Source of the DNA: Anastatus disparis | Lineage: Eukaryota > Arthropoda > Insecta > Hymenoptera > Eupelmidae | NCBI GenBank assembly: GCA_017163975.1 | Contig: JAFFSR010000307.1 | Span: 2,243,001 to 2,307,000, forward strand | Length of the DNA stretch: 64,000 nucleotides | Direction: 5' to 3' | The notes under the pieces: generated by a model | Told to the model about the DNA's origin: nothing | Database searches by the model: none | The model's input: the letters and a program-made list of their open reading frames with translations, nothing else | Program-made: the position numbers and the translations under genes | Part shown: piece by piece, positions 17,516-49,320 of the stretch | Position numbering within the stretch: the stretch's first letter is position 1 | Layout: each line of letters begins with the position of its first letter

Positions 17516-17557
17516 GTATACAAAATTCGCTTAAAACAAACCTAAATTCATGCTATT

Positions 17558-21610: not shown

Positions 21611-22295
21611 GGGGACCAGGTACTATTGAAACTTGAGAAATTCAAATATGAATGATTAAAAATGTATTGCTTTTATCCAAGGAAATAAATTTTTTGAAAA
21701 AATACATATGTTTCAGAAGACTTTTTATTTCTGAAACTTTTATCTATCTTGAAAATTCAACTTATGGTCCCCGTTAACATTCTGGTACTGAAAACAGATT
21801 GGTCGCAAGGGTTTTTTCAAGAGTTTTCATCTGATCTTGATGAAATTTGGTGGAGATTTCCAAAATCATATTAGAATCCACATGAGCAAGAGACATTCCT
21901 AAAAAATTCAAATAAAAAAATTTTCTAAAAGAAATCAATTTTTTTAAAAATTTGTTTATTTATTTTTATAAATAATAAGTTAATACACAAATTAGCATAT
22001 ATATATTTATAATTTGCTATGCTCATTAATTCTAATATAATTTTAAAAATCTCCACCAAATTTCATAAAGATCCGATGAAAACTCATGAAAAAACTTTGC
22101 GACCAATCTGTTTTTAGTACCAGAATGTGAACGGAGACCATCAGTTGAATTTTTAAGATAGATAAAAGTTTCAGAAATAAAAAGTCTTCTGAAAAATAAA
22201 TATTTTTTTAAAAAATTTTTTCCTTTTGGATAAAAGTAATAAATTTTTAATTATTCATATTCAAATTTTTCAAGTTTTAATAGTACCTGGTCCCC
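21611..22295. mobile_element. TTAA-flanked MITE, family 2
   Basis: GGGGACCAGGTACTATTGAA at the left is mirrored by TTTTAATAGTACCTGGTCCC at the right, with TTAA at 21607-21610 and 22296-22299. Arms of roughly 300 bp pair across most of the element. Confidence 0.88.
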
Positions 22296-22832
22296 TTAAT
22301 GGGGCATTTAGAGAGTAGGTATGTATTGTACGCGGTACATGCGTAGACAATGACATGAAATACATTATTTGTTATTAACTATTTATTATTCGCAATCAAA
22401 GGTTTTAAATTCGATATTGAAACATCTAATTTATAGCAACTTTCGTAAACTATAAAACGATGTTATTTTTAGGGTGGATAACTGGCGCAATGTTATCCTT
22501 GTTTTTGAGTCATTGCCTAGCAGTAAAACTCGGGTATTAAGTGCCCGTCAGTCAAAGTATTCTGTATTTAATTATTTATGACGCAGATATTAATTCCGTT
22601 TTTATTTTAAGAAAATTAATCAAATTTTATTATGATACTTCTATTGTAATTATTTTTGTTTTATTATTTAGTTATTAAAGATTAATATATAAAAAAAGAA
22701 CGTAAAAGAAAAATAATTTTAATATTTTCTAATTTGAAATTCGCGAATTTATTTTATGAATGATATGTTAGTTCCTTAACTTCCTTATTTATTAGATATA
22801 TTTACTTTCCGTTCTAAAAGGCATTAATAACC

Positions 22833-24521: not shown

Positions 24522-24608
24522 GTAATCTTAACTTGTTTGGTTAAGTTATAATTTCTTTTCTTTTAGATTTTAATAGATTATAAAAAAAATTTTTTTTTTT
24601 GTTGATAC

Positions 24609-27600: not shown

Positions 27601-28223
27601 CTTTTTAAATGTTTTCAACGCATTATTACTTGTAATATTTCATGAAATTATTTAAAAATTCTTTCATGCTGTGTGGGATTAAACTAAATGAATAAGCCAG
27701 TATGAAAGCGCTGACTAGACGTCTGAAACCAGCTAGCAACAACTTGTGATCGAAAGAAATGATGACGAACTAGCTGACAAGTTAAGACCTGTAGAGAACG
27801 AACAAAGTGAAGCATGGAAAAACAGAAGCCACGAGGTAGAAACTTCTAGAAGAATAAAGAAGTGGGAAACAACGAACCCAGTAAGTATAAATACGACCGG
27901 GCGAACCACGCCGCGGCCTACTAGGCTACGAGGCATTAGAGCACCAAGAGAGATGTAGACTACTCGAACCCGACCAGAGCATAAAGAAGCACGAATCCAC
28001 GATCGGCGCAGCGAGGACGTATCAGCGATTTTACACCAGTAGTACAGTAGACACATCTCTCTCTCTCTCGCGACTAACGTAATAATAAATCAAACAGTTC
28101 ATTTTAAATATCGTCTTATTAAATTAATTACCTTCACGCAATTTGACTACTTGGATTTACCAAGCTTAGTCGTGATAAAAAGATACCCACAATATAATAA
28201 ATCAATTACGTGAAAACGTAACA
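24609..28223. repeat. Solo LTR, split by a 3-kb insert
   Basis: Starts TGTTACGGGTGG and ends AAAACGTAACA, with the 4-bp duplication ATAC at 24605-24608 and 28224-28227. Removing the insert at 24663-27679 leaves about 600 bp, the size of an insect gypsy LTR, including a TATAAATACGACC box near 27887 and AATAAA signals. No internal retroelement sequence accompanies it, so it is a solo LTR formed by recombination between two LTRs. Confidence 0.8.
24663..27679. mobile_element. 3-kb element with ATCCCAYACAGCATGAAAG ends and 285-bp tandem repeats
   Basis: Terminal inverted repeat ATCCCATACAGCATGAAAG (24663-24681) against its inverse at 27661-27679. From about 25450 to 27480 lie eight diverged units of about 285 bp (starts near 25455, 25745, 26025, 26315, 26585, 26870, 27150, 27430), each with CCTTTCAAGAAGTCTTTTC, CTTTCAGTAAGGATTCATGT and TTTCAAAAAGATTTCAAAAT. 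A (CA)n tract lies at 25163-25232. No ORF beyond repeat artefacts. Confidence 0.78.
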
Positions 28224-28227
28224 ATAC

Positions 28228-29506
28228 AAAATTACTTACGCTTAGAAAAGAATATAAGGTAAACTCCTTTTAGAAATAAAAAGATGTTATTTAAATTTAA
28301 AGTTATTTATTCAATTAAAAAAAACTGTGATACAAAATTAACAAAATATTTTTTCGGATTTATTTACTATCAAAAATTTTAAATCTAAATTGAATCGAGT
28401 TATGAAAGAAAAAGTAAAATTTTTTTGAAAATCCTTCAAGTTACAATAAGTATGAATCTGTTCTGATAGAAAATTAAAACAGTAAATCACGATAAAAAAA
28501 AATGAGAAAAATTTCTAAGTTAATTCAAGAAAATGAAATTTTAGAGAAAAATTCTAAGTTCGATCTCGAGAAATGAACTCGAGCGAGAAAAATTATGGAG
28601 TGTGTGTACATCGGTCGGTCAGGCCCTTTTTATACCTAAACAACTAATACTGTAGCATGCTAATAGATAATCTACAAAATTATCTAACAATTTTCTCCAA
28701 TTAGAGAAAATTGTTTTTCTAACGCTTTTTTTACATGATTTCTATTGGCCTTTGCTTTTCTTAAGAGGTCAGAGAGGGACCTTAAACCCTCCTAAAATTT
28801 GAACTTTGACCTTGAGTAATGTGTAAGACAAAGAGAGAAACTAGGGTATAGAAGTTTTTCTTGCAGCAGAGGGGGTATATCTGGAAAGATATGCCACCTC
28901 TCTTAGAGAAGCCCTATTTTGTCTCTTGATCTTTTACAATTTTTCTTAAATTGTTAAAAATCATTATAAATCGTTATTAACTAATTATGGTCTAAATTAA
29001 ATATCTCTATAATATTGCAATTAAAATTCTCTTTAAAACGATATAAAATATGCCTATTAAGCTAGAATTTAATGATTTTAAAAAGAGAAATTGATATAGT
29101 ATTTCCTTGTTATTTAATTTTATTTGCAATATTATTCGACACATATGTAAAATTACAGTTTCTTACGAATCGCCATTGTTAATAATTTTTTTAATTTTTT
29201 TTCTTCTTGTGTTTTTCGCTCCTTAAATTTTCTCTTGAATTAATTTAATAATTATTTTTATTGCTATTTAAAAGGGGAACAATTATGACCAAATAATAAT
29301 AAGATCGAAAAAAATCATTTTGTTTAAAAAGTTAAAATAAAATTTGAAAATGAAAGAACGCTTGCATGACCGTACATCTAAAGAAGCGAGGTTTATAGCT
29401 TACAGATCTGTACGTTACAAGTGTGTGCATCCTTAAAGGAATCAAGGAAAGAAGCTAAAACAGAAATATTATTTGAGGTTAGAATTGTTTCCCTTTATTA
29501 ACTTAA
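28228..29506. other. AT-rich interior of the 13.6-kb element
   Basis: No gene, no defined repeat. Contains short self-complementary strings only (for example AATTGTTAAAAATC). Confidence 0.35.
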
Positions 29507-29654
29507 CCTTTTAAAGACGAGACTGGTCGATATTTCGACCACTCAAGTATCATAATATTTTTGAGTTTTTTAATATAATATTATCCTCAAAATCACTCAA
29601 AAATATTATGATACTTGAGTGGTCGAAATATCGACCAGTCCCGTCCTTAAAAGG
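29507..29654. mobile_element. TTAA-flanked hairpin, family 3
   Basis: TTAA (29503-29506), CCTTTTAAAGACGAGACTGG, a perfect stem GGTCGATATTTCGACCACTC plus TATCATAATATTTTTGAGT with its inverse, then TTAA (29655-29658). At 148 bp it is one of the shortest of the TTAA guild; CGATATTTCG inside the stem is itself palindromic. Confidence 0.8.
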
Positions 29655-29658
29655 TTAA

Positions 29659-29938
29659 TATTGTAAATTTTTTTCTTTTTTCCTTATATAAAAATAATGA
29701 TTAAAAACAAAATAAAAATTATTTATCAAAAACTTTTTATGCATCTAAAATTTTTAATATTAAAATTCGCTATAATGTGCGTATATTAATTAATTAATCT
29801 TAATTACTATTAAATCTATTTCTTTATGATTGTGATTAAAAGTAAATTATTTTTGTAAATATTTGGAATTGAAATTATAAAATTTTCCTCGCATAGAAAA
29901 GAAAAGTTTTGGTTTTCGTTTCTATGACATGTGTATAC

Positions 29939-30003
<65 letters not shown>

Positions 30004-30417
30004 CATGACATGAACGTCTTCGTATCTGTTCGACTTAGGAATTTTTATAGCTTTCAGCTGTACCGATAACTAAACGCGTGTTTGTTTTTTTTTCTTCATC
30101 TTTGGAAAAATAAGATGAGAACTATGAGAAAATAATTTTTAAATGTTTTGTATTTTGATAGAATTAAAAATTATTTTATTTAATAGAGATTTTTATTATT
30201 CCTTTTACGCATAAACAGATACAGTGATCGTTCGGTTTTTACCTTAGACGACCTGAGTACTTTACTATTATTATTGGACTTGAATAATAAAAATTAAATT
30301 TCGCATGAATGTAAAAGTATAAAAAATTTAATTGTTTGATCCGATTATGTTTATAAATGTACGTATAATTCGTTTACATAGTTAGGTATATCCACCTATA
30401 TATAGTTATGGCCGTAC

Positions 30418-30449
<32 letters not shown>

Positions 30450-31864
30450 ATATATAGGTGCATATACACTTGCCGAGCTGACCCGCCTACGGTGCATACA
30501 CGCTCAAGAGCTTCGGCTCCTAAGTCTTTTATTGCCGTTTGCTTTCCTTTTTGGGGTTTTCCTTTTTATTAGTATTACTAAAAATTTCTTAAATTATAAA
30601 ATAATTTCAAAAATTTTCTCATTAGATGTGTTTGACATTACACTTATGGATGCTTTAGGTTTCTTAAACTTCCGAAGCGCACCTAGAGGAACTCAAAATA
30701 AGTCAAACATATGAAAAAATATTTACTTTTTAACTGGGAAAGGGGTCTCGGACTCAAAAGGTTAAAATAAAAAATAAAATTTCTAAAAATTTCATTCTTT
30801 GTAAAAAAGTAAATTTGCAGTGCTAAAAATAATTCATGTTAATTTAAAATCATTTTTTTTCAATTTTTATTCAAACTTTTTTTTTAATTGTCTATTAAAT
30901 CGATATTTTTCCATTTTTTATAATTTAACATTTTATCGCTAAAATATACAGCATGAATTCTTTCTTTATAAAGATTTAATTATGAATATTTTTCTAAGAT
31001 CACATTTTAATCCTCGAAAATGAGCATAAAATGTTATTATTTTATCAGCATTACATAGGTAGAAAAACATTTTATATTGGTTAAAGAATTAGCTATAAAA
31101 ACTCCCATTTTCAACTCTTCATTTCAAAGCAATAGGCATAAAATAGTAAAAAAATCGTTTTAATTTCTACTAGGGTATTAGACTGATAAATAATTCTATA
31201 CATACCACTAAAATATTTCTTTATATGAAACCTAGATTTTAGTGTTTACTTATCAATTAAAGAATCGTTATTATTATTAGAAATATTAATCCATTGTTCA
31301 TATTTAAGTATTTAATAATTAAACTTTTAAATACATAATTTTTTAAAGGAATTTATAAAAAAATTAAGTTTTTTTTGACACATTGTTAATATAATGTGGG
31401 AATGCTTGAAAATCTCAAATTACAATATTGTAAAAGGCATACTGCAATTTAGTAAACGAATTTTAGCAAACGAATACAGTAAAAGAAATAAGAAATGATA
31501 ATAATTGAAAAGTAATAATATTATGTAAAATTTAATAGTCTTAATGATATTAAATAAAACATTAATTAACAACATGCTTTAAGAAAAAAATTCATTTTTG
31601 ATTAATTCATAAAATTAAAAGTTTTGCTCATTTTTCTCATATATAAGTTATTTATTTTCATTGCTATTTATAAATTTTTGTTAAATAAGTTTTTCAAATT
31701 TAATATATTTATGTCTTATTTAGAATTTAGACATAAAATAATTGTCCTAAGACAGTTGAGTTCTACAGGGTACTATCACCCAACAAGCAAACGGTGTCAA
31801 AGAGAGAATTAAAAAAGAATTCTTTATGTATACTTCCGTAAACGAAAGTATCAATAAAGAGTTC
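29659..31864. other. AT-rich stretch with TA/TG microsatellites, no gene
   Basis: (TA)n at 29943-30000 and a TA/TG tract at about 30418-30455. Open frames here are short, compositionally biased and without motifs. Confidence 0.4.
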
Positions 31865-31868
31865 TTAA

Positions 31869-32249
31869 GAAGGGGCCGAACTATCTGTCTTTGTCTAATA
31901 GCGTTTTTCATCATTTATGTAAACACTATCCGGTATAACAAGAAAAAAATAGCAGACCCCGCTAGATATTAGTATAATAAGTAAATTTTGTAATAACAAC
32001 CAAATTTTTTCACTGCGTAGTTTTTGAATAATTAGAGACCTACCAAAAAAAGATAGGTTATATTCTAGATTGCTAGTAGGTCTCTAATTAGTCAAAAACT
32101 ATGCAGTAAAAAATTTGGTTGTTGTTACAAAATTTACTAATTATACTAATATCTAGCGGGGGCTGCTATTTTTTTCTTTTTATACCGGATAGTGTTTATA
32201 TAAATGATGAAAAACGCTATTAGACAAAGACAGATAGTTCGGCCCCTTC
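31869..32249. mobile_element. TTAA-flanked MITE, family 4
   Basis: GAAGGGGCCGAACTATCTGT is mirrored at the right end. TTAA lies at 31865-31868 and 32250-32253. Arms of about 180 bp are nearly identical, around a short centre with CTAGATTGCTAG. It abuts the next MITE, sharing one TTAA. Confidence 0.88.
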
Positions 32250-32253
32250 TTAA

Positions 32254-32634
32254 GAGGGGGTCACGTATCTCTGTCCTTTTCTAATCAAAGAATTGAGTTT
32301 TTTACACAAACTAACAACTTTAGCAAAAAATGAAGAGAAAGCCGCATCTCGTAATAAAAAAAGCAATATTTTCTTTGATAAGAAAGAATTAATTTTATTG
32401 CTTCGTTTTCAAGAAAACCTTGAAAAACCAAATTGTCCACCCTAACCTCTATGATTTAAGTTTTTCAAGGTTTTTTTGAAAACGAAGCAATAAAATTAAT
32501 TCTTTCTTATCAAAGAAAATATTGCTATTTTTGATACCAGATGCGGCCTTCTCTTCATTTTTTGGTAAAGTTGTTAGTTTGTGTAAAAAACTCAATTCTT
32601 TGATTAGAAAAGGACAGAGATACGTGACCTCCTC
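32254..32634. mobile_element. TTAA-flanked MITE, family 5, copy 1
   Basis: GAGGGGGTCACGTATCTCTG and its inverse (CAGAGATACGTGACCTCCTC), with TTAA at 32250-32253 and 32635-32638. A second copy lies at 60547-60926. The centre has GGTTTTCTTGAAAACGAAGC strings facing each other and a unique TTGTCCACCCTAACCTC. Confidence 0.88.
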
Positions 32635-32849
32635 TTAATGATTGCTTTGTTTATTCACGAATGTCCGACCACTTTAGTTTTTAAAGTATTCACAAAGTAT
32701 TCACAAACAATTCTTTTGATTGAATCAAATTCGCAAAATACTTTTTTTCATCATAAAATTATAAATAATTCTTCTATTTTACATGATTATGAAAAATAAA
32801 AAATGTTATAATTGATTAAAAATAAGCTATTTAATTAAAAAAAAAAAAA

Positions 32850-32945
32850 ATTATTTGTTCGAGATTCGAACCACGGTTCTTCAGGATGTCAAACAAAATA
32901 AAAAAAGTGTTGCCCATGACTTAGTCTACTTGGCTACCAACTCAT
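32850..32945 (-). other. tRNA-like sequence with Pol III signals (pseudo-tRNA or SINE head)
   Basis: On the minus strand a box A-like TAGCCAAGTAGACTAAG is followed about 55 bp later by the box B-like GGTTCGAATCTC and then a T-run at about 32840, a Pol III terminator. The length and a long middle insertion would fit a class II tRNA, but the acceptor and T stems pair poorly. A degenerate tRNA-derived sequence is more likely than a functional gene. Confidence 0.4.
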
Positions 32946-33770
32946 CTGTTAATAAATTCTCGAAATTTGTACACGTTCATTGGTATAAGCAGAAGAAATG
33001 TTAGTAAATTTGTTAGTTAATTATTCATGGTTAATAATATTAGCCAAACTACATTTTTATTTGAATAACTTAAGTAAAAATTTATTAAATATTCAAGAGA
33101 TACCTTAATTTAATAAAAGAAATTTTTTGTGAAGTCATGGTTAATATTTATATATTTTGTTTTATAAAATGTTAACAATTTTTTTGTTTAAAATAGATCA
33201 AAATTATTTATATTATTAAATGATTAATAAAATTGAATTTTTACATTTTATAAAATTATAAGGAATTTCAAGTTTTCAATTTTGAATTTCATGAAAATCA
33301 AAATTAAAAATGATTTTAAAATAATCTGAGAAGCAATAAAATATCCATTACATCTTTCGATTTTTGAAAGTGACTAAGTTACTAGAAAATCAGTGTTTCA
33401 AAAGTATACTTTTTGACTACTTTATGAATACTTTGGATTATGATTGCTGTTTCAAAAAAGAATTCTTTATGAATACTTTCTTAATCCTTTTAAAATATTT
33501 ATAAAGATAAGTTGAAGAGTTGTTTTTTATTTAAATTTTGTGGAAGAATACTTTGTGAATATTTTATGAATACTTTATTAATATATTTTATATTCACTTC
33601 AGAGCGGACATTCGTGAATTCTTAAAGAATTCTTTTTTCTAGATGTGTGCTAATTGGGTACTTATTTTCGATTAATTTTCTTGTGATTTCCATTAGATTT
33701 TGGTAGCAATTTCGTCGGCCGCATATTCTAGTGTACTCTACATTTTATTTAAAACAGAAAAAATCCCAGG
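32946..33770. other. AT-rich stretch, no gene
   Basis: Nothing recognised. Contains repeated AAGAATACTTTGTGAATA-like strings that suggest local degenerate duplication. Confidence 0.35.
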
Positions 33771-34244
33771 ATGGACATGTGGTAATCACAAAACCATACT
33801 ACGTAACAATGACATGGTCCGATTGTCGGACTGAAAAAGATCTGCAGAAAATTTGCCGGACATTATGATCTTATGGTTTCATAATTAATTATCAAGTAAT
33901 CCTATAAAAATTGGCTATGTGGTCATCGCATAACATAACCCTGTCCTATCGACATAATTCAAATGGTAGACTCATCTAACGCAGAATTATTTTTGTCGGC
34001 CATACATTATTTGATTTTCGTTATAAAAATATCTTTTAGTTCCATGTAAAAAAAAGTGTGTGGTCATTGCATAACAATACATCGTCAAATCGACATGTTT
34101 AATAATTAATTATTAAAAAACGCAGCGGTTTCGAGAGTGTTCGTAGATGAAAAGTTTGGTGGACTCGACAAAATGAAGCCGCTTACAAAGTTCTAAGTAT
34201 GTGGTAATCATTTTTTAAAAAGGGTTCTGTACTGCGGACTATTA

Positions 34245-35410
34245 CCTAAAGATGGAGCAGAACATTTAGCTTCAGCATTAAAAAGCATGAATTAGTTGGC
34301 AAATTCTACTAAAGTATCTTTTTACAGAACAAGAAGCAAAAGTTTCGAACCATATTTTGAAGAAATGAAACATGATGGTAATGAAATTGTATATTGTAAA
34401 GATGTGGAAGGTTTGATGAATGAATTTAAGCCTAATGTATATAAAGTCGAAAAATGGAGATTGTTCATGGATTCATCAGACAAAAGTTTAAAAGCTGTAT
34501 TACTACACAACAGCAACTACTATGCCTCAGTTCCTATAGCGTATACCACTACAATGAAGGAAACATATGACAATCTCAAAATTATACTATAAAAAATTCA
34601 GTATGACAAACATAAACGGCTTATATCTGGCAATTTAAAAGATTCCGGTATTCTTTTATGACAGCAGTCTGGATTTACAAAGACGCCATGTTCCTTGTGC
34701 TTATGGGATAGAAGAGACGGTGCAAAGCACTATACAAATCATAAATTGCCTCGAAGACAATCACTCGAAATCGGAAAAAGTAACGTTATAGCTACTTCAT
34801 TGGTTGACCCGAAAAAAGTTCTCATTCCGCCATCACACATAAAACTTGGTGTAATAAAACAATTCGTTAAGGCTTCAAATAAAGATGGTCAGTGCTTCAA
34901 ATACTTGGAAAGCCAGTTTCCAAATAAATCGGATGCGAAATTAAATGAAGGTATTTTTGATGGTCCAGAAATTTGAAAAATGATGTCTTATGATCAGTTT
35001 ATTAGTTTCATGACAAACATTGAAAGAACTGCATGTCTTAGCTTCCAGGAAGTTACCGAAAACTTCTTGGGTAATCGCAGGAGCCCAAAATACAAAGAAA
35101 TTGTATCCAAAATGGTTGAGAACTTTGAGAAAATGAATTGCCTAATGAACTATAAATTACATTTTCTACACAATCACTAGGATAGTTAACCTGACAACTG
35201 TGGACATTATAGTGAAGAACAGGGAGAGCGTTTTCACCAAGCCATTAAAGTAATGGAGGAGCGTTATAAAGGTAGATGGGATACTAGTATGCTGACTAGA
35301 TTGCTGCTAGATGTTAAAAAGAGATTGCAAAACCACTGGAAAAAAACGTAAAAGGAAACCTTTGTACCGATCATTTGACGAGAAACGTGTAAGGTATTGT
35401 AAGAAAAAAT
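34245..35410 (+). pseudogene. Unclassified transposon gene, copy 2, 3' part
   Basis: Collinear with copy 1 (18740 down to 17558): KVSFYRTRSKSFEPYFEEMK, CSLCLWDRRDGAKHYTNH, VDPKKVLIPPSHIKLG, KQFVKASNKDGQCFKYLES, SFQEVTENFLGNRRSPKYK, SEEQGERFHQAIKVMEERYK. The Pro-Pro segment that is frameshifted in copy 1 is intact here. In-frame stops near 34590, 34974 and 35178 kill it. Copies 1 and 2 carry different lesions, so they diverged before dying. Confidence 0.75.
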
Positions 35411-35479
35411 AAATGGCATGAGGTTTGGTTTGTGTTACGCAAATTTTGTATATTTTGCCTTTAATTAACCATCTCTCTG

Positions 35480-35660
35480 AGGTCATGGGGTCAAATGGAC
35501 CACGGATTCGGATTCAGTGACCCCGAAAACATAAATATATACTGTTAAAATATGGTTCCCACTAATTTCGTAGATTTGACCTTCAAATGACCTTGACCCT
35601 GAGGTCATGGGGTCAAATGGATTACGGATTCGGATTCAGCAATCCCAAATTTTTTTTTTT
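35480..35660 (-). repeat. 121-bp repeat units, right end of element B
   Basis: About one and a half units in inverted orientation relative to 16335-17515, with CCTTCAAATGACCTTGACCC and GATTCGGATTCAG strings. They run directly into the T-run and terminal inverted repeat of element B. Confidence 0.88.
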
Positions 35661-35679
35661 CTGGGGCTGTGTTATGATT

Positions 35680-36444
35680 GGTCACGCCTCTCATCCTCAG
35701 TTATGCTAGGTCTTCGCACTAGTTCACGTATGGATACAGAAGCAAGCCCTGCAGATTTTGTATTTGGCACATCTCTAAGACTACCTGGCGAATTCTTCGC
35801 ATTCGGAGAATTCGAGCCAAACAGACAAATCTTCTTGGAAGAATTCCGAGAGTACATATGTAAAATACAACATGTACCGGTTGCGCACAAACACGTGATT
35901 AAACATTTCGTGTACAAGGAACTCGCGTCGTGCACCTACGTATTTTAGCGTAACAAAGCTCCTAAAACTGGTCTCGATAAGCCATACGCTGGACCCCACA
36001 AGGTTATTTCTCGCAACGATAACGAACGCAATTGCGTGATAGATATTAATGGTAATCACAAAACAGTAGCAGTTGAATTGGTTGAACCAGCTCACTACGT
36101 CCCAGATGACGTTGTAGAGTTAGTCTTAGAACCAGAAGATACATACGAACAGAATCATATCAGTAGGAACAGGTATGGTGACAGTTATAATTACGATCTT
36201 ATTAGACGTACTACTGAACCACCTCGGGTGATTAACGAAAGCCAACACGCTGGGTCAAGATCAGAAAGCTATGATCAGGACACTGTCATGCCTGACATAG
36301 ACATGAACCCACCTGTAAGGGAATACACAAGTTCTCAGGCCTCAGCAAAACCTCAAATGTCACAAGAACCCAAAAATACACAAGAGAGTAATGCATAGGC
36401 GCCCGTTAAGAGCAACGTGCGAGCTCCTCTTAGATAGTATGTAA
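35680..36444 (+). pseudogene. Integrase C-terminal region (end of gypsy pol), piece 3
   Basis: Frame with WSRLSSSVMLGLRTS, ASPADFVFGTSLRLPGEFF, HVPVAHKHVIKHFVYKEL, a TAG at 35946-35948, then KTGLDKPYAGPHKVISRN and VELVEPAHYVPDD. This order (the LGLRTS/FGTxLRLPGEF block, then the GPxxV chromatin-type segment and the polar tail) is the usual end of gypsy pol in insects. The ORF stops at 36396-36398; another frame stays open to TAA at 36442-36444. The kinase ATG follows 38 bp later. Confidence 0.85.
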
Positions 36445-36482
36445 ATAAAAATAAAATAAAATTCAGTCAGCAAAACCAGGTG

Positions 36483-37482
36483 ATGGAGATTCCTCCAAAT
36501 AAGTTAGCTGAAAAGAGGTATGCAATGCCCAAGCCAATCCCTTTGCATGAGATTTTTACAGATCTCAAACAAAACAAATGGATTATTGGACCATCAATTG
36601 GCGTTGGCGAATTTGACGAAATTTATGCGGCTGCCCTATATACAGGCAGAATCCCAAAAGATTACCTAGCAGTAATGAAGATAGAACTTCATAAAAACGG
36701 ACCTTTGTTCGTCTAGATGCATTTTTACATGCAAGCAGCACTCCCAGAAATGATAATGAAATGGGCAGAGTATGAATCAATCCCAGAAGTAGGATTACCC
36801 CAGTATCTCGGCGCAGGAAGCCATAAGATAAATAAGGAAGACTACAGATTTGTAGTTTTAAAGAGATACAACCTCAACCTAAAGCAACTGTTCTTGAAAA
36901 CAGATAAAATGTTTCCAGAATACACAGTTTACCACTTAACATGGGTAATTTCAATAGTTCTGCAATATATGCATCAAAAAGGTTACGTCCAAAACGATAT
37001 AAAAAATACCAACATCCTCATAGATAAAAACAACAAAAGTATGGTATACCTAGCAGATTTCGGTCTGTCCTGTAAGTTTAAAACCAGTATGGACTTCAAA
37101 CCTGACCTTAAAAAAGCCAACAATGGCACACTTGAATTCATAAGTCGAGATGCCCATCAAGGAGTCCCCACGAGATTTTGAATCCTTGGGATAGAATATG
37201 ATCGTTTGGGCAGGTGGCAAATTAACTTGGCACGACAGACTCGATGACCAGGAAGCTGTTTTTAATCTCAAAAACTTAGCTTTTGCGGATATTTCAGGAT
37301 TCATAGAAAGCTGTTTCCATGGTAAAGATCACCCTCAATTAATTGATGCGTATTTCGATGAAATATCTCAATATGAGCACCATGAAACTCCTAATTATAG
37401 CAAAATCCAAACAATCATGTTCGCCGAAATGTGTAACTTAGAGCACTTCCCGTTTAAAAATTTCTATCCGCATTTAGATTAA
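36483..37482 (+). pseudogene. VRK/CK1-type protein kinase carried by the retrotransposon, inactivated
   Basis: About 333 codons, no introns, a full kinase domain of the vaccinia-related kinase (VRK) family, which phosphorylates nuclear substrates in animals. Motifs: glycine loop PSIGVGEFDEIYAA; beta-3 Lys in AVMKIE with NGPLF after it; catalytic loop YVQNDIKNTNILI (the usual His-Gly-Asp of VRKs is Gln-Asn-Asp, Asp and Lys kept); LADFGLSCKF at the Mg-binding position; and the VRK signature NNGTLEFISRDAHQGV followed by GGKLTWHDRL. Lesions: TAG at 36714-36716, a frameshift near 37173 and TAG at 37192-37194 (a Tyr position). It starts 38 bp after pol and ends about 120 bp before ORFX, inside the LTRs. 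A lone processed pseudogene is unlikely, because there is no poly(A) tract and a second ORF follows. Confidence 0.85.
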
Positions 37483-38377
37483 TAAACAAACTTAGCAACC
37501 ACTAATATAAATTTAAGTCACTAACCAGTTGGCGAGAATAGTTACGTGTCGAAAATGAACGGTCGACTAATTAGACGTCCTTTTCCCCCACAGATCTCGC
37601 AACATGGAACAATTAGTCCAAGTCTTTCAGGAATTAGAAACGTTTAAGAAACAACAAGCAGACCAGGCTATCAAGGCGGACGGTTTTAAGGCCGATGTCT
37701 TCCTAAACCACTTTAAAGACCACTTCCAAAAGTTAGTCGACAGACGAGAGCGGAAATTAAACCTTCATCAACGTCGCACGTATTTAAACGAGACTATAGT
37801 GATTAATCACCGTATTCCGCAACTTTTCGTAAACAAACGCCCCGTGCATAAACTATTTTTATATGATATATTCAAAGGCGTATCCAAAGAAGAAATCTCT
37901 GCGATGTCAATCTTTCGCTCTATCAATAAAGTCAAAGTGGACAAAGTTTTTCATAAAAATAACCGAGCTTTTGTTGTGGTCAGCTTCGAAGACCTTGCAA
38001 CATCAGCCAGACTTCAAGGTGACATATGCCGTAATAAATTTGAATTCAAGTACTATAAAGCAGAAAGTAGCTTTCTCAGGTGCAAACCTGATGAATCATG
38101 CTATATGCACAGTCCTAAACCACTAACTTATAGGAAAGCTGATTATCGTGTGATGCCTCTAACGGTAGCTAAATTGTTAAACAATAATATTGCCTTAAAG
38201 TTAACTGTCAAAAGATTAGACACAAACGACTTCTTTAATTTTTTTAAAGCGACACACTTTTATCCAGCGTTCTTTTCCTTTACAACGACATTCGATTCGT
38301 CAATTAAACAGTATAATTCAGCAAATTACTTTAGAATCATTCGAGAAGATGCAGGTAACTTTAGATTCACTAAGATT

Positions 38378-41300
38378 AAAGGCTATAGCAGAATAAGCAT
38401 GGTGAATTTGCCCCCTCCTAAATGGCGTATCTGATATGGGTCACTCAAAAGGTTATCAAAAAATATTAAGAAAGCCAAAATTACAGACCCCTAAACCCCA
38501 TGTAGGAGTTATAAAGCTAAAAAACGTGATTTTTCGATTTTATTTTTTTACAGCTAGGCTCTGCATTCCAGAGACTTGTAAAAAATCATGAAAGTAGGTT
38601 TTTCCTTTCTAAATAATTAAAATTTTTTACGAAACTCATAACCTCAAAATTGGATCCGAAAAACCTCATTAAAATTTTAAATCAGTGTTTTTACATTCCA
38701 GATTTCGAGGCACTAAACTCAATATAGGTATTTTTTATGTATTTTTTCCTGCTCTTCACGATGCCGTCATTAGTTTACAAAAAAAATGGTGGCACACCCA
38801 ATTTTCGGCCAAAAATCGTTTTTTTTTGGCTTTTTTACGGGGTTCTAAGCATTAATAATGAAATAAATTACTATATTATGGCTCTAAATAACACTTTTTC
38901 TATATTTTTCTACTTTCTGTTGAGTTGTGAAATCAGATTGAAGATATTTTCAGCTGAACACGCTATCCTACGCTCAGAAACGGTTTTTTGTGGGGTTATT
39001 TAAAGATTTTGTTGCGTGATTTGGCATCTGAGAGATTTGGAAAGACATATTTTGATAATCCATACATGTTCTTTACAACTGTATACTCAGATTTGCAATA
39101 TTTTAATCCATAAACCATGAAAATTTACCGAAATCTAATTTTTTTGAGGTTATGTAATAATTTCATTTGATTATATTTTATTTAAATAACTTAAATAACA
39201 AATATCAGTATTTTTTATGACTTTCTATTATTTTGTCTTATCAGATTTACGATATTTTCATTTACACGTTCCAGTATTTGCCAAAAACTGATTTTAGTTT
39301 AAGTTTATGTACAAATTGTATTAACTTATATTACATTTAAAAAGCTTAAAACAACGGTTTTTAGTTTATTTATGTTACCATTTTTCAATCATATTTTCAG
39401 TATATTGCGATGCGCGCTTAACATAGTATTTTGAGAAAATGTAATGCTTTTACTAAGTTATGTTATTCTTACTAAGTTGAAAACAGTTACTTTTAAGTGT
39501 ACTTCAATCATTTCTTAAATATCATGGCACAAATAATATTTTTTTAAACACCGCAACTTTTTATTTAAATAAAGTTGATAACAGAATTGGTAGGAAAAGT
39601 AATTTTCTCATTTTCATAGTTTGCGTAGTGAATAATATAATAAATTATAAAAAAATGTTAAATGTAACTCAAGACAAAAACTCAAGATTAGTGACAAATG
39701 AAGCCTCGAGCAACAAAAATGACCAAGCCCATTTTTTTTTAAAATTGAGTTATTAAGTAAAGCATATTTTTTAGCCTATTTTCTACTATATTTAATTATA
39801 AAATTTTTAAAAAATTTGATTTTTCAATTTTTTTGGTATGTCAAAAAACTGCTGCAAATCAAAAAAGCGCCAAGTCCATTGAACTTGCTTATCAAAAATG
39901 GTCAAGTCCAATTTTAATTTTAAGAATAGAGTACATGTGCATTTTTATGAATATACTCACGCATATACTTACACATAAACATAATACGCTCACAAATACA
40001 CACTCGTAAGCATATGCAATAATAATATACTATGTGTTACTTATAAATAATAAACGCGTATTTATGAGTGTACGTCTATGATTGTTGATAATGTTCAGCG
40101 AGCTTCCGAGAATAAACTTTAGCGATTTTTCGATTTGCAGCAGTTTTTTGACATACCAAAAAAATTGAAAAATCAAATTTTGTATGTGTGTATAGACTAT
40201 ACATACCTACAAAAGAAATATAATATTTCTAACAAATAGCAATTTAAGCATATATTTCAGTAAAGTATGTCAAGAAAAAAAAATAATCAAAAAAAAGCAG
40301 AAAACTAATTAGAAATGATTTATCATATCAGATTGTTTATTTCAAGCTTTAATTTTAATAGTTTATTTTATAAATAAAACAATTATTTTTCATATCTGAG
40401 ATTTTAAAAATGGTATTCTCATTGTTTTCTTAATTTAATAAATTTTAGTGTAAAAATATAAGTTGTTGCGTTTCTTTAGTATACTTTTTGAATTGTAGTA
40501 TTTATATGTAATCGGAAATTGAGTCTAGTTTTATTAGAATTAACTCCTGACTATAATGACTATGATCAGAAATTACTCCTTCATTAGATTTTATATTTTT
40601 CATTAATAATTTTTTTATTCATTTTATTATTATTTTTCAATTTTTTTGGTATGTCAAAAAACTGCTGCAAATCGAAAAAACGCTAAAGTTTATTCTCGGA
40701 AGCTCGCTGAACATTATCAACAAACATAGACGTACACTCATAAATACGCGTTTATTATTTATAAATAACACATAGTATATTATTATTGCATATGCTTACG
40801 AGTGTGTATTTGTGAGCGTATTATGTTTATGTGTAAGTATATGCGTGTGTATATTCATAAAAATGCACATGTACTCTATTCTTAAAATTAAAATTGGACT
40901 TGACCATTTTTGATAAGCAAGTTCAATGGACTTGGCGCTTTTTTGATTTGCAGCAGTTTTTTGACATACCAAAAAAATTGAAAAATCAAATTTTTTAAAA
41001 ATTTTATAATTAAATATAGTAGAAAATAGGCTAAAAAATATGCTTTACTTAATAACTCAATTTTAAAAAAAATGGGCTTGGTCATTTTTGTTGCTCGAGG
41101 CTTCATTTGTCACTAATCTTGAGTTTTTGTCTTGAGTTACATTTAACATTTTTTTATAATTTATTATATTATACACTACGCAAACTATGAAAATGAGAAA
41201 ATTACTTTTCCTACCAATTCTGTTATCAACTTTATTTAAATAAAAAGTTGCGGTGTTTAAAAAAATATTATTTGTGCCATGATATTTAAGAAATGATTGA

Positions 41301-42425
41301 AGTACACTTAAAAGTAACTGTTTTCAACTTAGTAAGAATAACATAACTTAGTAAAAGCATTACATTTTCTCAAAATACTATGTTAAGCGCGCATCGCAAT
41401 ATACTGAAAATATGATTGAAAAATGGTAACATAAATAAACTAAAAACCGTTGTTTTAAGCTTTTTAAATGTAATATAAGTTAATACAATTTGTACATAAA
41501 CTTAAACTAAAATCAGTTTTTGGCAAATACTGGAACGTGTAAATGAAAATATCGTAAATCTAATAAGACAAAATAATAGAAAGTCATAAAAAATACTGAT
41601 ATTTGTTATTTAAGTTATTTAAATAAAATATAATCAAATGAAATTATTACATAACCTCAAAAAAATTAGATTTCGGTAAATTTTCATGGTTTATGGATTA
41701 AAATATTGCAAATCTGAGTATACAGTTGTAAAGAACATGTATGGATTATCAAAATATGTCTTTCCAAATCTCTCAGATGCCAAATCACGCAACAAAATCT
41801 TTAAATAACCCCACAAAAAACCGTTTCTGAGCGTAGGATAGCGTGTTCAGCTGAAAATATCTTCAATCTGATTTCAGAACTCAACAGAAAGTAGAAAAAT
41901 ATAGAAAAAGTGTTATTTAGAGCCATAATATAGTAATTTATTTCATTATTAATGCTTAGAACCCCGTAAAAAAGCCAAAAAAAAACGATTTTTGGCCGAA
42001 AATTGGGTGTGCCACCATTTTTTTTTGTAAACTAATGACGGCATCGTGAAGAGCAGGAAAAAATACATAAAAAATACCTATATTGAGTTTAGTGCCTCGA
42101 AATCTGGAATGTAAAAACACTGATTTAAAATTTTAATGAGGTTTTTCGGATCCAATTTTGAGGTTATGAGTTTCGTAAAAAATTTTAATTATTTAGAAAG
42201 GAAAAACCTACTTTCATGATTTTTTACAAGTCTCTGGAATACAGAGCCTAGCTGTAAAAAAATAAAATCGAAAAATCACGTTTTTTAGCTTTATAATTCC
42301 TACATGGGGTTTAGGGGTCTGTAATTTTGGCTTTCTTAATATTTTTTGATAACCTTTTGAGTGACCCATATCAGATACGCCATTTAGGAGGGGGCAATCA
42401 CCATGCTTATTCTGCTATAGCCTTT
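38378..42425. repeat. 4.05-kb near-perfect palindrome (foldback insertion)
   Basis: Arms of about 1.8 kb (38378-40180 and 40640-42425) run inverted with rare mismatches, from GGCTATAGCAGAATAAGCAT inward, around a 460-bp unique AT-rich spacer. Secondary inverted strings (TTTTTGGTATGTCAAAAAAC and its inverse) recur inside the arms. There is no convincing ORF. A possible duplication AAGG lies at 38379-38382 and 42427-42430; with it, ORFX rejoins in frame. Such symmetry suggests a foldback transposon or an inverted duplication; it could form a 1.8-kb hairpin. Confidence 0.88.
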
Positions 42426-42546
42426 CAAGGACATTCAGTTCCTATTAAAATCTTCACGGTAATAGATATCTTCCAAGTACAATATAACACGTTCGACATC
42501 AAAGCAAATTGCGCAGGCAAAATAGTCGTAGATTTAATAGATTTAA

Positions 42547-42943
42547 GGGGAATCCTCATACCGACATAGAGTTCTACCTTATCTACATTTAAATTATGAA
42601 TTTTAATAAAAATTCAACTATTCATGACTGAAATTCGTAGAAGAGGCACATTCTTGACATTCTAAAAAATTCATTGCAACGTTAAAAGACAGAATAAAAG
42701 TAAAAATGAAGACAAAAACTGCATAATACGATTATTCATAACTACATTGAAAAATTAATCGTATTAAGCAGTTTTCGCCTTTATTTTTACCCTAATATTG
42801 TCTTTTAACGTAGCAATAAATTGTTTGGCATGTTAAGAATGTGCCTCTTCTATGAATTTTAGCCAAAAACAGTTAAATTTGTATTAAAATGCATAATTCA
42901 GATATAGATAAGGTAGATCTCTGTGCCGGTATGAGGACACCCC
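42547..42943. mobile_element. TTAA-flanked MITE, family 1, copy b (inside ORFX)
   Basis: GGGGAATCCTCATACCGACA to GCCGGTATGAGGACACCCC, with TTAA at 42543-42546 and 42944-42947. It interrupts ORFX between an IDL and a GIN segment; loss of the element with one TTAA restores the frame exactly. Confidence 0.92.
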
Positions 42944-43788
42944 TTAAGAGGTATAAACGCGACCTTACAACTTTTATCGATAGTAGATGAGTTGTTTGAG
43001 TCACATACACTGTGCTTGGGTGATTTTACTGAATGTTTTGATAAAAATTTTTAATTTACCAATGTACATAATTTAACGTTAGAAAACAACCAAAAAACTA
43101 GATTAAAATTTTTACTACTAGATGCTTTCACTAATTTAAAATCGATAACAATCAATAATTGTCATAAAATTCTTAGCTCATACCTATCTGATCTTATCTG
43201 GTATAATCGATCAATAACAACTGTTGTAGTTACAGTTTGCAAAGCCATCGACCCAGATGTACATTTTTTCAGACTAAATGAAGCCTTCTTGTCAGGCAAA
43301 AACCAACTTAAAAATATAACTTTTAATCACTCAGTGCCCAAAGACACCATGGTAGAGTTCGACTACTTACCTGATTTCGATGATAATCCAAATGTAAATA
43401 GATTAGATCTGTCAAACAACGGCAGTATGGAAAAGATAGTTTCTAATACAATCAACAATGTAAAAAATGTAATAGAGTCGAATTTGCTAAGTATTAAGAT
43501 AGAGTACGCGTTAGATTTGTCAACGCTTAAATCACTCAAAGTTGTAAAGATAAGCTACTATCCAGCTGTGAGTCAAACCCTTAAATCAATCAAACTTCTG
43601 CCAAAGAGATCTCAGTAATCAAAACTCTTGGCAAGAAAAAAACTAAATTTTTAGAAGTTCAATTCATAGAATCTATTGTCAAATGGACCAAAAAGCTGTA
43701 CGCCCATTTTGTAAGGTGTAACATAAGTTTAAACTCACTGATGATTGAAAGGTTTGATCGCAGCAAAATTACAAGTACAGGGAAAGAT

Positions 43789-44795
43789 TTTTTTTTTTTT
43801 TTTAAAAAAAAGGTTAATTATATAGAGGATATTGTCATCCTCTATATAATTAACTTTTTTCATATGATAATATTAGATAGATTCTAGCCCGGAACCGTTT
43901 AACACATTACATCAGGCTAGCCCATCTGATACACCATACCGAAATCTTTGACTGCCGATCGATGGTCAGTCACATTTTTTGTGACCAACAATCAATCGAT
44001 ACCCAATGAGATCGGATTTAGTAAGAGCCGCGCGAAATTGTTAGCACATACACTAATTTTTCTTTAGAAAAAAAGTCAGAGGTACCTGGCCAGGATTCGA
44101 ATCCATGCCCACCGCGTTGAAGGCCAGAGCTCTATCCGTTAGGGTGAAATCAAATGGAGCGGAAAATAGGCGACGGAACGTCACAGAACCTCAATTCCGC
44201 ATCTTTGTATTCCGCCAACGGAGTAAAGACGACGTAATAGACGACATCAATTTTTATTTTGTTTAAAAAAATTATTAGTGCTTCATTAACCTCACGTAAT
44301 ATTTTTAATTTGCTTTCCATAGCTGTACTTTTAATTTCAATCAAACTTTTAAATTCTATTTTGGTTAACTATTTGTTTAAACAATTTCAAAAAGTCTGTG
44401 ACGCTTCTATTATCCCGTCAAATTTGTTTCCCTATATTCACATGGAGCGGAATAGAAGTTCTGTGACGTTGATTAGCAATTTTATAATTAAAAAATAATG
44501 ATGTTAATTGAAATATTTGGTTATAATAACAAACTATATTTTATTTTTATAAAAAAAGAATCTCATTACAATAACAATAGGTGATTATTTCCAACTTTTT
44601 TAACATTTTTGTTGTTAATTTAAAATTCGCGGATACATTTGTATGCTATTTTTAACAATTTTTCAGCTACATTCCGCACCATGTGAATATAGGGAAAAAA
44701 TTTGACGGAAAACAAGGCGACGGAATGAATGTTTTGTGACGTTCCGTCGTCTATTTTCCGCTCCATCTGATTTCACCCTTACGCCACCGCTCTCT
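43789..44795 (-). mobile_element. tRNA-derived SINE in ORFX, holding a MITE
   Basis: Flanked by the 15-bp duplication AGTACAGGGAAAGAT (43774-43788 and 44796-44810). The minus strand ends in an A-tail (T-run at 43789). The head is tRNA-like: GCGGTGGCGTAACGGATAG (box A, once the MITE is removed), CTCTGGCCTTCAACGCGGTG and GGATTCGAATCC (box B). A hairpin of AGAGGATGACAATATCCTCT type lies near the tail. Without the MITE it is about 370 bp. It should move by LINE machinery in trans. Confidence 0.85.
44142..44778 (-). mobile_element. 637-bp TTA MITE (Harbinger-like), copy 1, in the SINE
   Basis: GGGTGAAATCAAATGGAGCG to its inverse, between TTA at 44139-44141 and 44779-44781. It is inverted relative to copies 2 and 3 and inserted in the SINE tRNA-like head. 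It contains a 64-codon ORF shared by all three copies that ends inside the terminal repeat. Confidence 0.92.
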
Positions 44796-44846
44796 AGTAC
44801 AGGGAAAGATAATACACATACGTTTAGATTTAATGTAAATAATTAA

Positions 44847-46047
44847 CCATATATAATTGTAAAACAACAGTACAATGTAAACCAAAAGACTGTAAAACAA
44901 CAGTATAATATGAATCAAAAGACTGGAAAATAGCAGTTTAAGGGTGAAATCAGATGGAGCGGAAAATAGACGACGGAACGTCACAAAACATTCATTCCGT
45001 CGCCTTGTTTTCCGTCAAATTTTTTCCCTATGTTCACATGGCGCGGAATGTAGCTGAAAAATTGTTAAAAATAGCATACAAATGTATCCGCGAATTTTAA
45101 ATTAACAACGAAAATGTTAAAAAAGTTGGAAATAATCACCTATTGTTATTGTAATGAGATTCTTTTTTTATAAAAATAAAATATAGTTTGTTATTATAAC
45201 CAAATATTTCAATTAACATCATTATTTTTTAATTATAAAATTGCTAATCAACGTCACAGAACTTCTATTCCGCTCCATGTGAATATAGGGAAACAAATTT
45301 GACGGGATAATAGAAGCGTCACAGACTTTTTAAAATTGTTTAAACAAATAATTAACCAAAATAGAATTTAAAAGTTTGATTGAAATTAAAAGTATAGCTA
45401 TGGAAAGCAAATTAAAAATATTACGTGAGGTTACTGAAGCACTAATAATTTTTTTAAACAAAATAAAAATTGATGTCGTCTATTACGTCGTCTTTACTCC
45501 GTTGGCGGAATACACAGATGCGGAATTGAGGTTCTGTGACGTTCCGTCGCCTATTTTCCGCTCCATCTGATTTCACCCTAAGTAATCATAATGCAATTTG
45601 CAAGCTGGATAATAGCAGCTCAAAAACTCATGTATGTTAAAAACAAAAATGTGATTTAAAACAATATAGTAAAAAAACTAAAAGGTATTAATTGTTAATA
45701 AAAAAGAAAAAGACTTTATTCATGTTGAAAATATTAAAAAGAGTAACTATTGTAATCGTTTAAATAAATAATATTGAGTCAAAACAGTTTGTTAAAAAAG
45801 ATTGTAATTATGAAAAATGTATTTTTTAAACTTTATAAAAAAACTTTTGTAATGTAACAGCGGTTGCAATATACTCTCAAAAATGTTCTCTCTAACTCTC
45901 TCTATTCTTAAATGATATCTAACAATCGCGAGTAAATACTCGAATGTTTTAAAATTTTCAATTTCCCTCATTTATATTAACATTTCTATAATTAATAATT
46001 AATATTTTAGTCGTAAAAACGATAAATTTAGAAAGAGTAGACGTCAT
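44847..46047 (+). other. 3' untranslated region of the LTR retrotransposon (with a MITE at 44942-45578)
   Basis: AT-rich. Before the MITE, short repeats of TAAAACAACAGTA and CCAAAAGACTG appear. After it nothing coding is seen up to the polypurine tract. Confidence 0.6.
44942..45578 (+). mobile_element. 637-bp TTA/TAA MITE (Harbinger-like), copy 2
   Basis: GGGTGAAATCAGATGGAGCG to its inverse, between TAA at 44939-44941 and 45579-45581. Length is identical to copies 1 and 3, and the sequence is nearly identical, indicating recent spread. A three-base TWA duplication and GGGTGAAATC-type ends fit PIF/Harbinger. Confidence 0.92.
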
Positions 46048-46061
46048 TTAGGGGAGAGTCA
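46048..46061 (+). promoter_or_regulatory. Polypurine tract of the LTR retrotransposon
   Basis: TTAGGGGAGAGTCA directly precedes the 3' LTR start (TGTAGG). The GGGGAGAG core would prime plus-strand DNA synthesis. Its position proves the kinase and ORFX lie inside the element. Confidence 0.82.
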
Positions 46062-46356
46062 TGTAGGCAGGCTACATATGTACGAGCTAACGCGCAAGCG
46101 CAGTCAAGAGAAAGAGAGAAGAAGACCTGTAAGAGCAAGCAAGGAAGGCGGCCAAGCTGCGATAGCCAGTCGTGTGACATGCTTGAAGCTATACACACGA
46201 GAGCCGAGAGTTTGGCGATACAATAAAACCTCTTTACTAATTACTTTCTGTTGTTCTGATTCATGTAGATACGTTTTGTATCCTCTTCTCGAATACGATA
46301 ATTGGTGGAGTGTGGACACCCATAAATTCCGGTCAATTCAGACCGGCAATCCCACA
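46062..46356 (+). repeat. Complete 3' LTR (295 bp)
   Basis: TGTAGGCAGGCTACATATGT to CAATCCCACA, with TG...CA ends and the AGAA duplication following. Contains an AATAAA signal (46222-46227). Its first about 160 bp match the truncated 5' LTR. Confidence 0.85.
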
Positions 46357-46360
46357 AGAA

Positions 46361-48639: not shown

Positions 48640-49320
48640 CCCCCAGGTGGCGATTTTCAAGTTTTGCGATTCCTTATACAAATTTCAAAGACGCAAATAT
48701 ATAAGGCCAGAACGCTCTCAGTTTAATCGCAAACGCTCTTCGTTTTTCGAAAAGTTGAAACTACGAGATTTATCTCGTTTTTGTTTTTTTCCTTTAAATG
48801 GGAAATAAATATCATGTAAAGACATTTTTCAATGTCATAATTTATGAAAAATAACGTTATTCTTTGCTAAATTTAGAGAAAATGACGTCTAGATGTCTTT
48901 GGTCATGTCGTAAATTGGAACAAAAAATACATCATTTTTCCAATGCTTAGGAAAGCTATTTAAAAAATAACGTCTTTTTATAATTTCAAAGACGTATTTT
49001 TTTTATATAAAAATACGTCTTTTTATAATTATAAAGACGTATTTTTTTTATAAATACATCTTTGAAATAATAAAAAGGAGTCATTTGTTAAATAGTTTTT
49101 CTAAACATTTGAAAAATGACGTCTTTCTTCGTTCCAATCTAAGACACGACCAAAGACATCTTACAAAGACGTCATTATTTTCTACAGGGGTAGCTCCGAT
49201 TTCACATTGTCATGTTTGTGAAAACATCAAAATTTTTGTGGGAAAGATTGATGTTTTCACACAAATGACGATGTTGCACTTCTCAGGGAACACGACGTAA
49301 TCTAGATGGGACACTTTGAG
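48640..49320 (-). repeat. Dispersed repeat C1, copy 2 (uninterrupted)
   Basis: Inverted homologue of 5800-6402 plus 46361-46400, read through without a break. It shows the state before the LTR retrotransposon inserted. Multiple GACGTCATTTTC and AAAATACGTC inverted strings make it strongly self-complementary. No ORF of note. Confidence 0.75.

Follow-up and report, generated by a model that had tools for sequence, protein, structure and literature searches.

A VRK-type kinase domain at the C-terminus of Pol in Ty3/gypsy retrotransposons of the hymenopteran Anastatus disparis

The analyzed stretch of DNA (here called the window) comprises 64,000 nucleotides of contig JAFFSR010000307.1 of the hymenopteran Anastatus disparis (assembly GCA_017163975.1, positions 2,243,001 to 2,307,000 of the forward strand), in a genome of 939,413,245 bases and 399 contigs. 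It harbors an old copy of a Ty3/gypsy retrotransposon, which spans positions 6406-46356, has AGAA on both sides and carries a kinase of the VRK family and a second open reading frame (ORFX) between the end of pol and the 3' long terminal repeat (LTR). In unbroken copies of this element, Pol, a protein of ~1,490 residues, has the kinase as its C-terminal domain. The window copy is composed of the following parts:

6402-6405: 5' target duplication, AGAA
6406-6572, + strand: partial 5' LTR, aligned to 46062-46224
6575-6862, + strand: integrase zinc-binding domain, degenerate (Pfam Integrase_H2C2, E 7.9e-09)
15942-16330, + strand: integrase core, degenerate (frames, and rve with E 0.0013, below the Pfam cutoff)
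35664-36437, + strand: C-terminal part of integrase and Pol tail, degenerate
36483 (ATG)-37482, + strand: VRK kinase domain, here with a broken frame
37576-37593, + strand: candidate 3' splice site before ORFX, pyrimidine-rich, ending 10 nt ahead of the ATG
37604 (ATG)-38401, + strand: first part of ORFX
42402-42541, + strand: second part of ORFX
42949-43791, + strand: putative leucine-rich-repeat part of ORFX, degenerate (profile match)
44808-44846 (stop), + strand: end of ORFX
46048-46061, + strand: polypurine tract region before the 3' LTR, read by eye
46062-46356, + strand: 3' LTR, 295 bp, TG...CA
46357-46360: 3' target duplication, AGAA
48645-49182, - strand: uninterrupted copy of the repeat that received the element

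Both the TG...CA termini of the LTR and the short target duplication expected of a Ty3/gypsy-type element were found in the window copy. When joined, its flanks aligned across the junction to the uninterrupted repeat copy (near 48645-49077); the right side of this empty-site alignment comprised ~20 bases, and the right flank alone aligned over 22 bases with E 8.7e-4. Because of the AGAA borders and the alignment of the joined flanks, kinase and ORFX can be placed inside one retroelement insertion. The original prediction, made from this stretch, had located the Pol tail, the kinase at 36483, ORFX at 37604-44846 and the 3' LTR at 46062-46356, and had drawn the borders from the AGAA duplication and the uninterrupted homologous flank; every one of these positions was recovered, and the borders held. 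The element as a whole extends far beyond the region first described.

The window copy is an old, broken member of its family. No gag, protease, reverse transcriptase (RT) or RNase H was seen between its 5' LTR piece and the integrase, which is itself split by two nested insertions (~9 and ~19 kb). The last integrase piece (35664-35945) had no Pfam match and was recognized by eye and afterwards by its position in other copies, while the Pol tail frame runs from 35949 to 36395, with the next stop in frame at 36435. The central piece of the kinase matched VRK1 (E 9.4e-32); the reading frame runs into a stop (36714) and is broken once more around 37180-37195, and two stops lie between kinase and Pol. 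Open stretches of 276 and 187 codons were each reached in 0 of 1,000 shuffles. For the 154 codons of the kinase piece the figure was 8 of 1,000, so the evidence for the kinase is its homology. Over 160 aligned bases the two LTRs showed 18 differences (13 transitions, 5 transversions; Kimura two-parameter distance, 0.124), equivalent to a neutral divergence of 0.062 per lineage. Stop densities, from stops assigned by eye (4 in integrase, 1 in kinase, 1 in ORFX) with frame shifts not counted, translated into a neutral divergence per site of 0.060 in integrase, 0.020 in the kinase (95% upper bound, 0.111) and 0.012 in ORFX (upper bound, 0.064). These values fit a kinase and an ORFX that were presumably intact when the window copy inserted.

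A search of the genome with the kinase region of the window (36430-37500) returned 35 matches, one of which lay in the host VRK1 gene (contig C135); the other 34 were element places, including the window, and were taken with ~1.5 kb on either side. As judged by blastn, 32 of the 34 places had the integrase tail ahead of the kinase and 24 had ORFX behind it, mostly at similar spacing; a few of the ORFX matches were partial or weak (e.g., L005 and L032). Related LTR sequence was found downstream in other copies, and in a subgroup accounting for 6 of the 10 places without ORFX (L014 and L017-L021), the LTR match began 0.82-0.85 kb after the kinase. Other copies thus carry the kinase, and many of them ORFX, at the same place, a point that the original prediction had proposed to check. 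Copies lacking both genes, with a visible junction behind pol, had been named in advance as evidence to the contrary; none was seen among the 34 places, a set that was found by the kinase itself and checks this only in part.

The relation of the kinase to pol became apparent in the better-preserved copies. Its frame was unbroken over at least 985 bases in 16 of the 34 places, and in 14 of these 16 it reached 387 nt or more into the preceding Pol sequence. Eight of the 16 had valine instead of methionine at the position of the window kinase ATG, so a start at that codon is hardly possible there. Reading further upstream, which was done in two copies (L035 and L036) with concordant results, revealed gag frames of 482 and 499 codons followed by a Pol frame that joined the integrase-kinase frame at a codon boundary (639 + 860 and 636 + 852 codons). 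The gag frame of L035 (L035:1896-3341, - strand) contains a DUF7041 domain (E 7.4e-12). In the pieces L035 and L022 of one copy, Pfam detected RVP (1.1e-4), RVT_1 (4.2e-36), RT_RNaseH (8.5e-30), H2C2 (2e-15) and rve (8.8e-15); the order protease-RT-RNase H-integrase, on which the name Ty3/gypsy rests, is therefore present in L035/L022, the window copy having integrase only. Since the frame runs on from Pol in 14 of 16 copies, since the joined frames measure 1488-1499 codons and since valine stands at the ATG position in eight of the 16, the kinase of unbroken copies is the C-terminal domain of Pol. The original prediction had put it where env would be, which has to be corrected. When a beetle VRK (P0009) served as the query, the genome yielded at least 113 matches (111 of 268 candidates scored), at least 13 of them within stop-free frames of 1,367-1,499 codons, to which such loci as L035 and L036 belong.

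The family of the window, referred to as lineage A, has an active-looking kinase in its unbroken copies. The kinase domain of L022 matched human VRK1 with E 1.6e-67 over 310 residues, ahead of VRK2 (5.3e-55), VRK3 (5e-30) and CK1 (1e-17). Its identity to P0009 was 40.7% across 307 residues, and with shorter fragments of other VRKs it reached as much as 45% (values obtained by a different method than the tree identities given below). Among the 16 unbroken kinases, which were used for motifs and for dN/dS (ratio of nonsynonymous to synonymous divergence), HNDIK was present in 16, and ADFG, the glycine loop and the lysine motif in 15 each. Median kinase dN/dS, determined by the Nei-Gojobori method, was 0.101 (14 pairs, dS 0.2-0.6), 0.092 (53 pairs, 0.6-1.2) and 0.079 (18 pairs, >1.2), with 0.118 (4 pairs, 0.05-0.2) and 0.212 (31 pairs, <0.05) at lower dS. 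In 12 lineage A copies the integrase yielded 0.302 (11 pairs, 0.2-0.6), 0.112 (30 pairs, 0.6-1.2) and 0.113 (2 pairs above), with 9 undefined; the 5' part of ORFX in 13 copies yielded 0.141, 0.128 and 0.083 in the upper three bins and 0.164 and 0.415 in the lower ones, with 7 pairs undefined. The pairs are not independent, and the choice of unbroken copies favors constraint; neutral drift to dS near 1, however, would not yield 0.1, and the unbroken lineage A kinases are, judged from these comparisons, under purifying selection. Retention by selection in turn suggests that the element makes use of the kinase. The capture of a host kinase had been proposed beforehand, with purifying selection on intact copies as a check; both are borne out, by the VRK1 match and by the ratios at dS above 0.2.

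The broken state of the window kinase, with two stops between it and Pol, would also be understandable if a host VRK retrocopy had landed by chance in a single element copy as a passive passenger. No flank of at least 8 bases is shared around the window kinase, and no poly-A tail was seen by eye; moreover, the kinase recurs in 34 places with conserved neighbors at dN/dS near 0.1. We therefore reject a chance landing and give it practically no credence.

Beyond the family of the window, 19 of the at least 113 places matched by the beetle VRK were fetched. The kinase lay within one open frame, with 395-534 codons ahead of it, in 18 of the 19; in L060, which entered no dN/dS count, the longest frame (396 codons) stopped before the kinase. 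In L047 and L055, the two loci examined with Pfam, both the integrase and the kinase domain were recovered, Pkinase being slightly under the cutoff in L055. The integrase part of 10 of the 19 loci aligned with lineage A, and 13 of the 19 appeared in an integrase search in which 101 of 9,725 candidates were scored. No DFG-type motif was found in any of the 18 scored loci. In the alignment, lineage B (L047, L053 and L054) kept the HxD and lysine positions, with G replacing the DFG aspartate; L061, which has lost both aspartates, groups with it. Lineage C (L055, L058, L062 and L065) has also lost the glycine loop, and R replaces the catalytic-loop lysine. Median kinase dN/dS was 0.117 in lineage B (12 pairs, dS 0.2-0.6; 0.447 in 13 closer pairs) and 0.144, 0.125 and 0.104 in lineage C (4, 10 and 10 pairs). 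The Pol-VRK proteins of both lineages thus look like pseudokinases kept under constraint.

That selection maintains the domain (median ratios of 0.10-0.14 where dS exceeds 0.2) despite the lost DFG aspartate would be in line with a VRK domain that serves mainly as a binding module, tethering the complex to chromatin, the DNA-bridging barrier-to-autointegration factor (BAF), the nuclear envelope or host VRK1 and so steering integration, with catalysis secondary or lost. The location of the domain agrees with this as well: targeting modules, namely chromodomains, are found at the Pol C-terminus of other Ty3/gypsy elements. A pure tether, however, would have no need of the catalytic motifs that lineage A retains in 15-16 of 16 copies at dN/dS 0.08-0.10, and we regard a mainly binding role as rather unlikely.

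To trace the kinase, 14 element kinases (4 of lineage A, 3 of lineage B and 7 others), the host VRK1 exons and 12 other VRKs were placed in a tree with IQ-TREE. Cellular and poxvirus VRKs were separated from all element kinases (support 92.7/97), and, given a root among the cellular VRKs, host VRK1 was the cellular branch nearest to the element kinases (88.3/96). Identity to host VRK1 amounted to 49-51% for lineage A (280-282 aligned residues), 35-37% for lineage B and 31-34% for the others. An integrase tree of the same 14 loci had the same deep splits as the kinase tree, each at 100/100, so one capture followed by co-inheritance fits. The host VRK1 gene is split by introns, and the unbroken element kinase frames are unsplit. 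We infer that a host VRK1 transcript was probably captured once and joined to Pol. A poxvirus origin of the kinase, also considered, is unsupported, as the element kinases adjoin host VRK1 in the tree and not the two poxvirus kinases. One more VRK-like stretch (G000:C154:77461-77754), separate from the host VRK1 gene and sharing 53% identity with the beetle VRK, possibly represents an exon of a second host VRK.

ORFX occupies the position of env. Its length is ~590 residues, 462 of them read in L029 and 129 in L037 (L067 and L069 have frames of 574 and 587), and its candidate acceptor is one of nine such sites on the + strand of the 64 kb. CAG stands 10 nt ahead of the ORFX ATG in 12 of 13 other copies, with the pyrimidine tract weaker in many, and ORFX may thus be expressed by splicing, as env is. 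An env identity was rejected: none of the four window ORFX pieces had a transmembrane stretch (maximal 19-residue hydropathy, 1.24) or a furin-like R.[KR]R site. When 5.8 billion proteins were searched with the window piece of ORFX, no relative turned up at E 1e-3. A profile built from three lineages gave six rows against PDB, two of them below 1e-3 (4.7e-4); five are plant receptor kinases and one is an NADase, all of which we take to be proteins bearing leucine-rich repeats (LRR). The LRR motif count of the window ORFX was reached in 155 of 5,000 shuffles, and no Pfam LRR family passed. The N-terminal part has a predicted coiled coil and, in a model with pLDDT 36.8, an RRM-like order of strands and helices; RRM chains were among the top Foldseek rows (no E below 0.06), and Pfam reported no RRM for ORFX. 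An NXF-like identity was considered as well and is doubtful, the models behind it being of low confidence. Residues 95-155 of ORFX in L029 (L029:2672-4058) weakly match DUF7632 (E 0.0029, below the cutoff). ORFX could be an RNA- or protein-binding accessory factor made from spliced RNA, to which these features point weakly.

That kinase and ORFX arrived jointly as one cassette might be suspected from the occurrence of ATGTAAATAA at 36439 and 44833, on either side of the pair. A shared 10-mer of this kind, however, was reached in 29 of 500 resamples, and the two genes occur separately, ORFX in relatives without the kinase (four places) and the kinase without ORFX in one subgroup. Joint arrival is accordingly very improbable, and ORFX either predates the kinase or is independent of it. 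The original prediction was right in placing a second gene, along with the kinase, inside the element.

Taken together, the explanation that we favor, with confidence moderately above even, combines the Pol-VRK fusion, a single capture of host VRK1 and phosphorylation of BAF by the kinase at element DNA. A host VRK1 transcript would have been captured once and fused to Pol; the kinase would be made together with integrase, reach the element DNA complex and there phosphorylate BAF, which would tune the hold of BAF on element DNA or target chromatin, and the pseudokinase forms might act through binding BAF or the host kinase. Parts of PMC4063967 and PMC7378220 describe that phosphorylation by VRK1 or vaccinia B1 strongly inhibits DNA binding by BAF and that BAF acts against vaccinia DNA; in a passage of PMC12047440, BAF on mitotic chromosomes is described as excluding large cytoplasmic objects, and one in PMC2965759 has fly NHK-1 phosphorylating BAF in oocytes. 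Because the VRK domain is part of the integrase polyprotein and would so be delivered with element DNA, we take BAF control as the most likely role of the lineage A kinase, a tentative assignment to which we give somewhat less than even credence. The original prediction had suggested an action on host chromatin or the cell cycle during transposition; BAF would be a more specific candidate.

According to the same part of PMC2965759, NHK-1 phosphorylates H2A T119 and DNA breaks suppress its activity via Chk2. The element kinase belongs to the same family and could serve expression or timing instead, mimicking NHK-1 on H2A or cell-cycle targets or offsetting checkpoint suppression of NHK-1 upon element-caused breaks. 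Fusion to integrase would rather put the kinase at the element's own DNA complex, and the pseudokinase lineages could not fulfil such a role enzymatically; we consider it quite unlikely. A poxvirus-like BAF antagonist convergently built into the integrase polyprotein, with active lineage A proteins releasing BAF and those of lineages B and C acting as decoys for BAF or host VRK1, is possible but doubtful.

Several observations weigh against the favored explanation of fusion, single capture and BAF phosphorylation. Regarding the fusion, the kinase frames of L027 and L028, 2 of the 16 unbroken ones, are not continuous with Pol. Regarding function, BAF is suggested as a substrate by the kinase family only, and parts of PMC4063967 and PMC7378220 describe BAF as binding retroviral preintegration complexes and protecting them from autointegration; removal of BAF could therefore help or harm the element, depending on timing. 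Key catalytic residues are lost in two of the three lineages (B and C), which can hence do without kinase activity, and in lineage C the integrase (0.059 and 0.055 at dS above 0.6) is more constrained than the VRK domain (0.104-0.125). As to ORFX, only 2 of 5 downstream stretches of lineages B and C contained a homologue (27-28% identity), and its RRM-like signal rests on low-confidence models.

The remaining points concern the single capture. Its grouping assumes a root among the cellular VRKs and involves long branches, and the inner order within lineage C differs between the kinase and integrase trees. Integrase relatives are very numerous (9,725 candidates, of which 101 were scored). Four related places were selected because their Pol frames measured 1,162-1,188 codons and are hence not a random sample; the 2.4 kb retrieved from each contained no kinase (lowest E 0.22-0.60). 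Their Pol frames extended 528-559 codons from the integrase start, and ORFX-related sequence followed Pol in all four (E 2e-17, 4e-18, 9e-14 and 4e-05). When these places were added to the integrase tree, the kinase-bearing families did not form one clade (54/50 and 72/48, weak), which calls for losses, exchange or more than one capture. Perhaps the kinase was gained once and then lost, or was exchanged between families. Several of the 101 scored integrase relatives had frames of 1,160-1,190 codons without a stop, as would be expected for a Pol lacking VRK.

The window copy has itself been the target of later insertions, whose positions are as follows:

6871-15940: nested insertion 1, ~9 kb, with inverted ends, flanked by GGTTTTCTCA (boundaries +/- a few bases)
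16330-35660 (approximate): nested insertion 2, ~19 kb, with many 122-bp tandem units in its inverted repeats
38402-42401: inverted-repeat element within ORFX, 4 kb, its palindrome reaching 38378 and 42425
42543-42948: MITE-like (miniature inverted-repeat transposable element) inverted repeat within ORFX
43794-44795: third insertion in ORFX, flanked by TACAGGGAAAGAT

The long inverted ends of nested insertion 1 are built of 143/304-bp tandem repeats, and a Pif1-helicase 2B domain lies in the frame 12152-12901 (E 3e-20). The 122-bp tandem units in the inverted repeats of nested insertion 2 are of the GGTCA type, and the insertion contains an inverted duplicate of a coding piece (17671-18725 and 34242-35297); the piece tested gave no convincing Pfam family. 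At the inverted-repeat element 38378-42425, the flanking coding sequence is palindromic for 28 bp too. Outside the retrotransposon, pieces of a non-LTR-type retrotransposon were found on the - strand at 3281-3658 and 4495-4803 (RVT_1 E 7.6e-08, weak CCHC knuckles), and the frame 62661-63257 shows a weak PHD finger (E 0.016, below the cutoff), perhaps the start of another retroelement. An Rfam search led nowhere, an NCBIfam search gave weak, general kinase and transposase matches only, and scans of viral and genome contigs were without useful result.

To our knowledge, no retroelement brings its own VRK. Full-text searches of one open-access library found no report of an LTR retrotransposon with a VRK or any other kinase, although LTR elements with captured enzymes are already known. 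Errantivirus-like Ty3/gypsy elements are characterized by an ORF in the env position and the order gag-pol-ORF-LTR. The present element shares with them this order, the 4-bp target duplication, the protease, RT, RNase H and integrase domains and a candidate acceptor before the third ORF, but its Pol ends in a VRK domain, and the ORFX pieces of the window are without transmembrane stretch or furin-like site. In transforming retroviruses, too, a host kinase is joined to a retroviral polyprotein; these are usually defective and short-lived, whereas here Pol is complete and the domain is kept by selection. Passages of PMC5408684 describe LTR retrotransposons of bdelloid rotifers whose captured ORF3s encode a GDSL esterase and a DEDDy exonuclease; to that extent captured enzymes are likewise kept, but as additional genes there and fused to Pol here. 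Ty3/gypsy elements of orchids that encode AlkB, an m6A demethylase (PMC9289625), resemble the present ones in gypsy lineage and host-type enzyme and differ in being plant elements in which the enzyme, an RNA demethylase, is encoded by an additional ORF. Vaccinia, with the B1 kinase, which inactivates BAF, and the B12 pseudokinase, which the pseudokinase lineages bring to mind (PMC6395007, PMC9175622), similarly unites a VRK-type kinase and a pseudokinase in a mobile genome, though that of a DNA virus.

If such a poxvirus-like BAF antagonist has indeed been built, an LTR element would encode its own control over barrier-to-autointegration factor. The coexistence of Pol-VRK proteins with active-looking and pseudokinase branches and of kinase-less relatives within one genome would make the control of the BAF switch by a retroelement testable.

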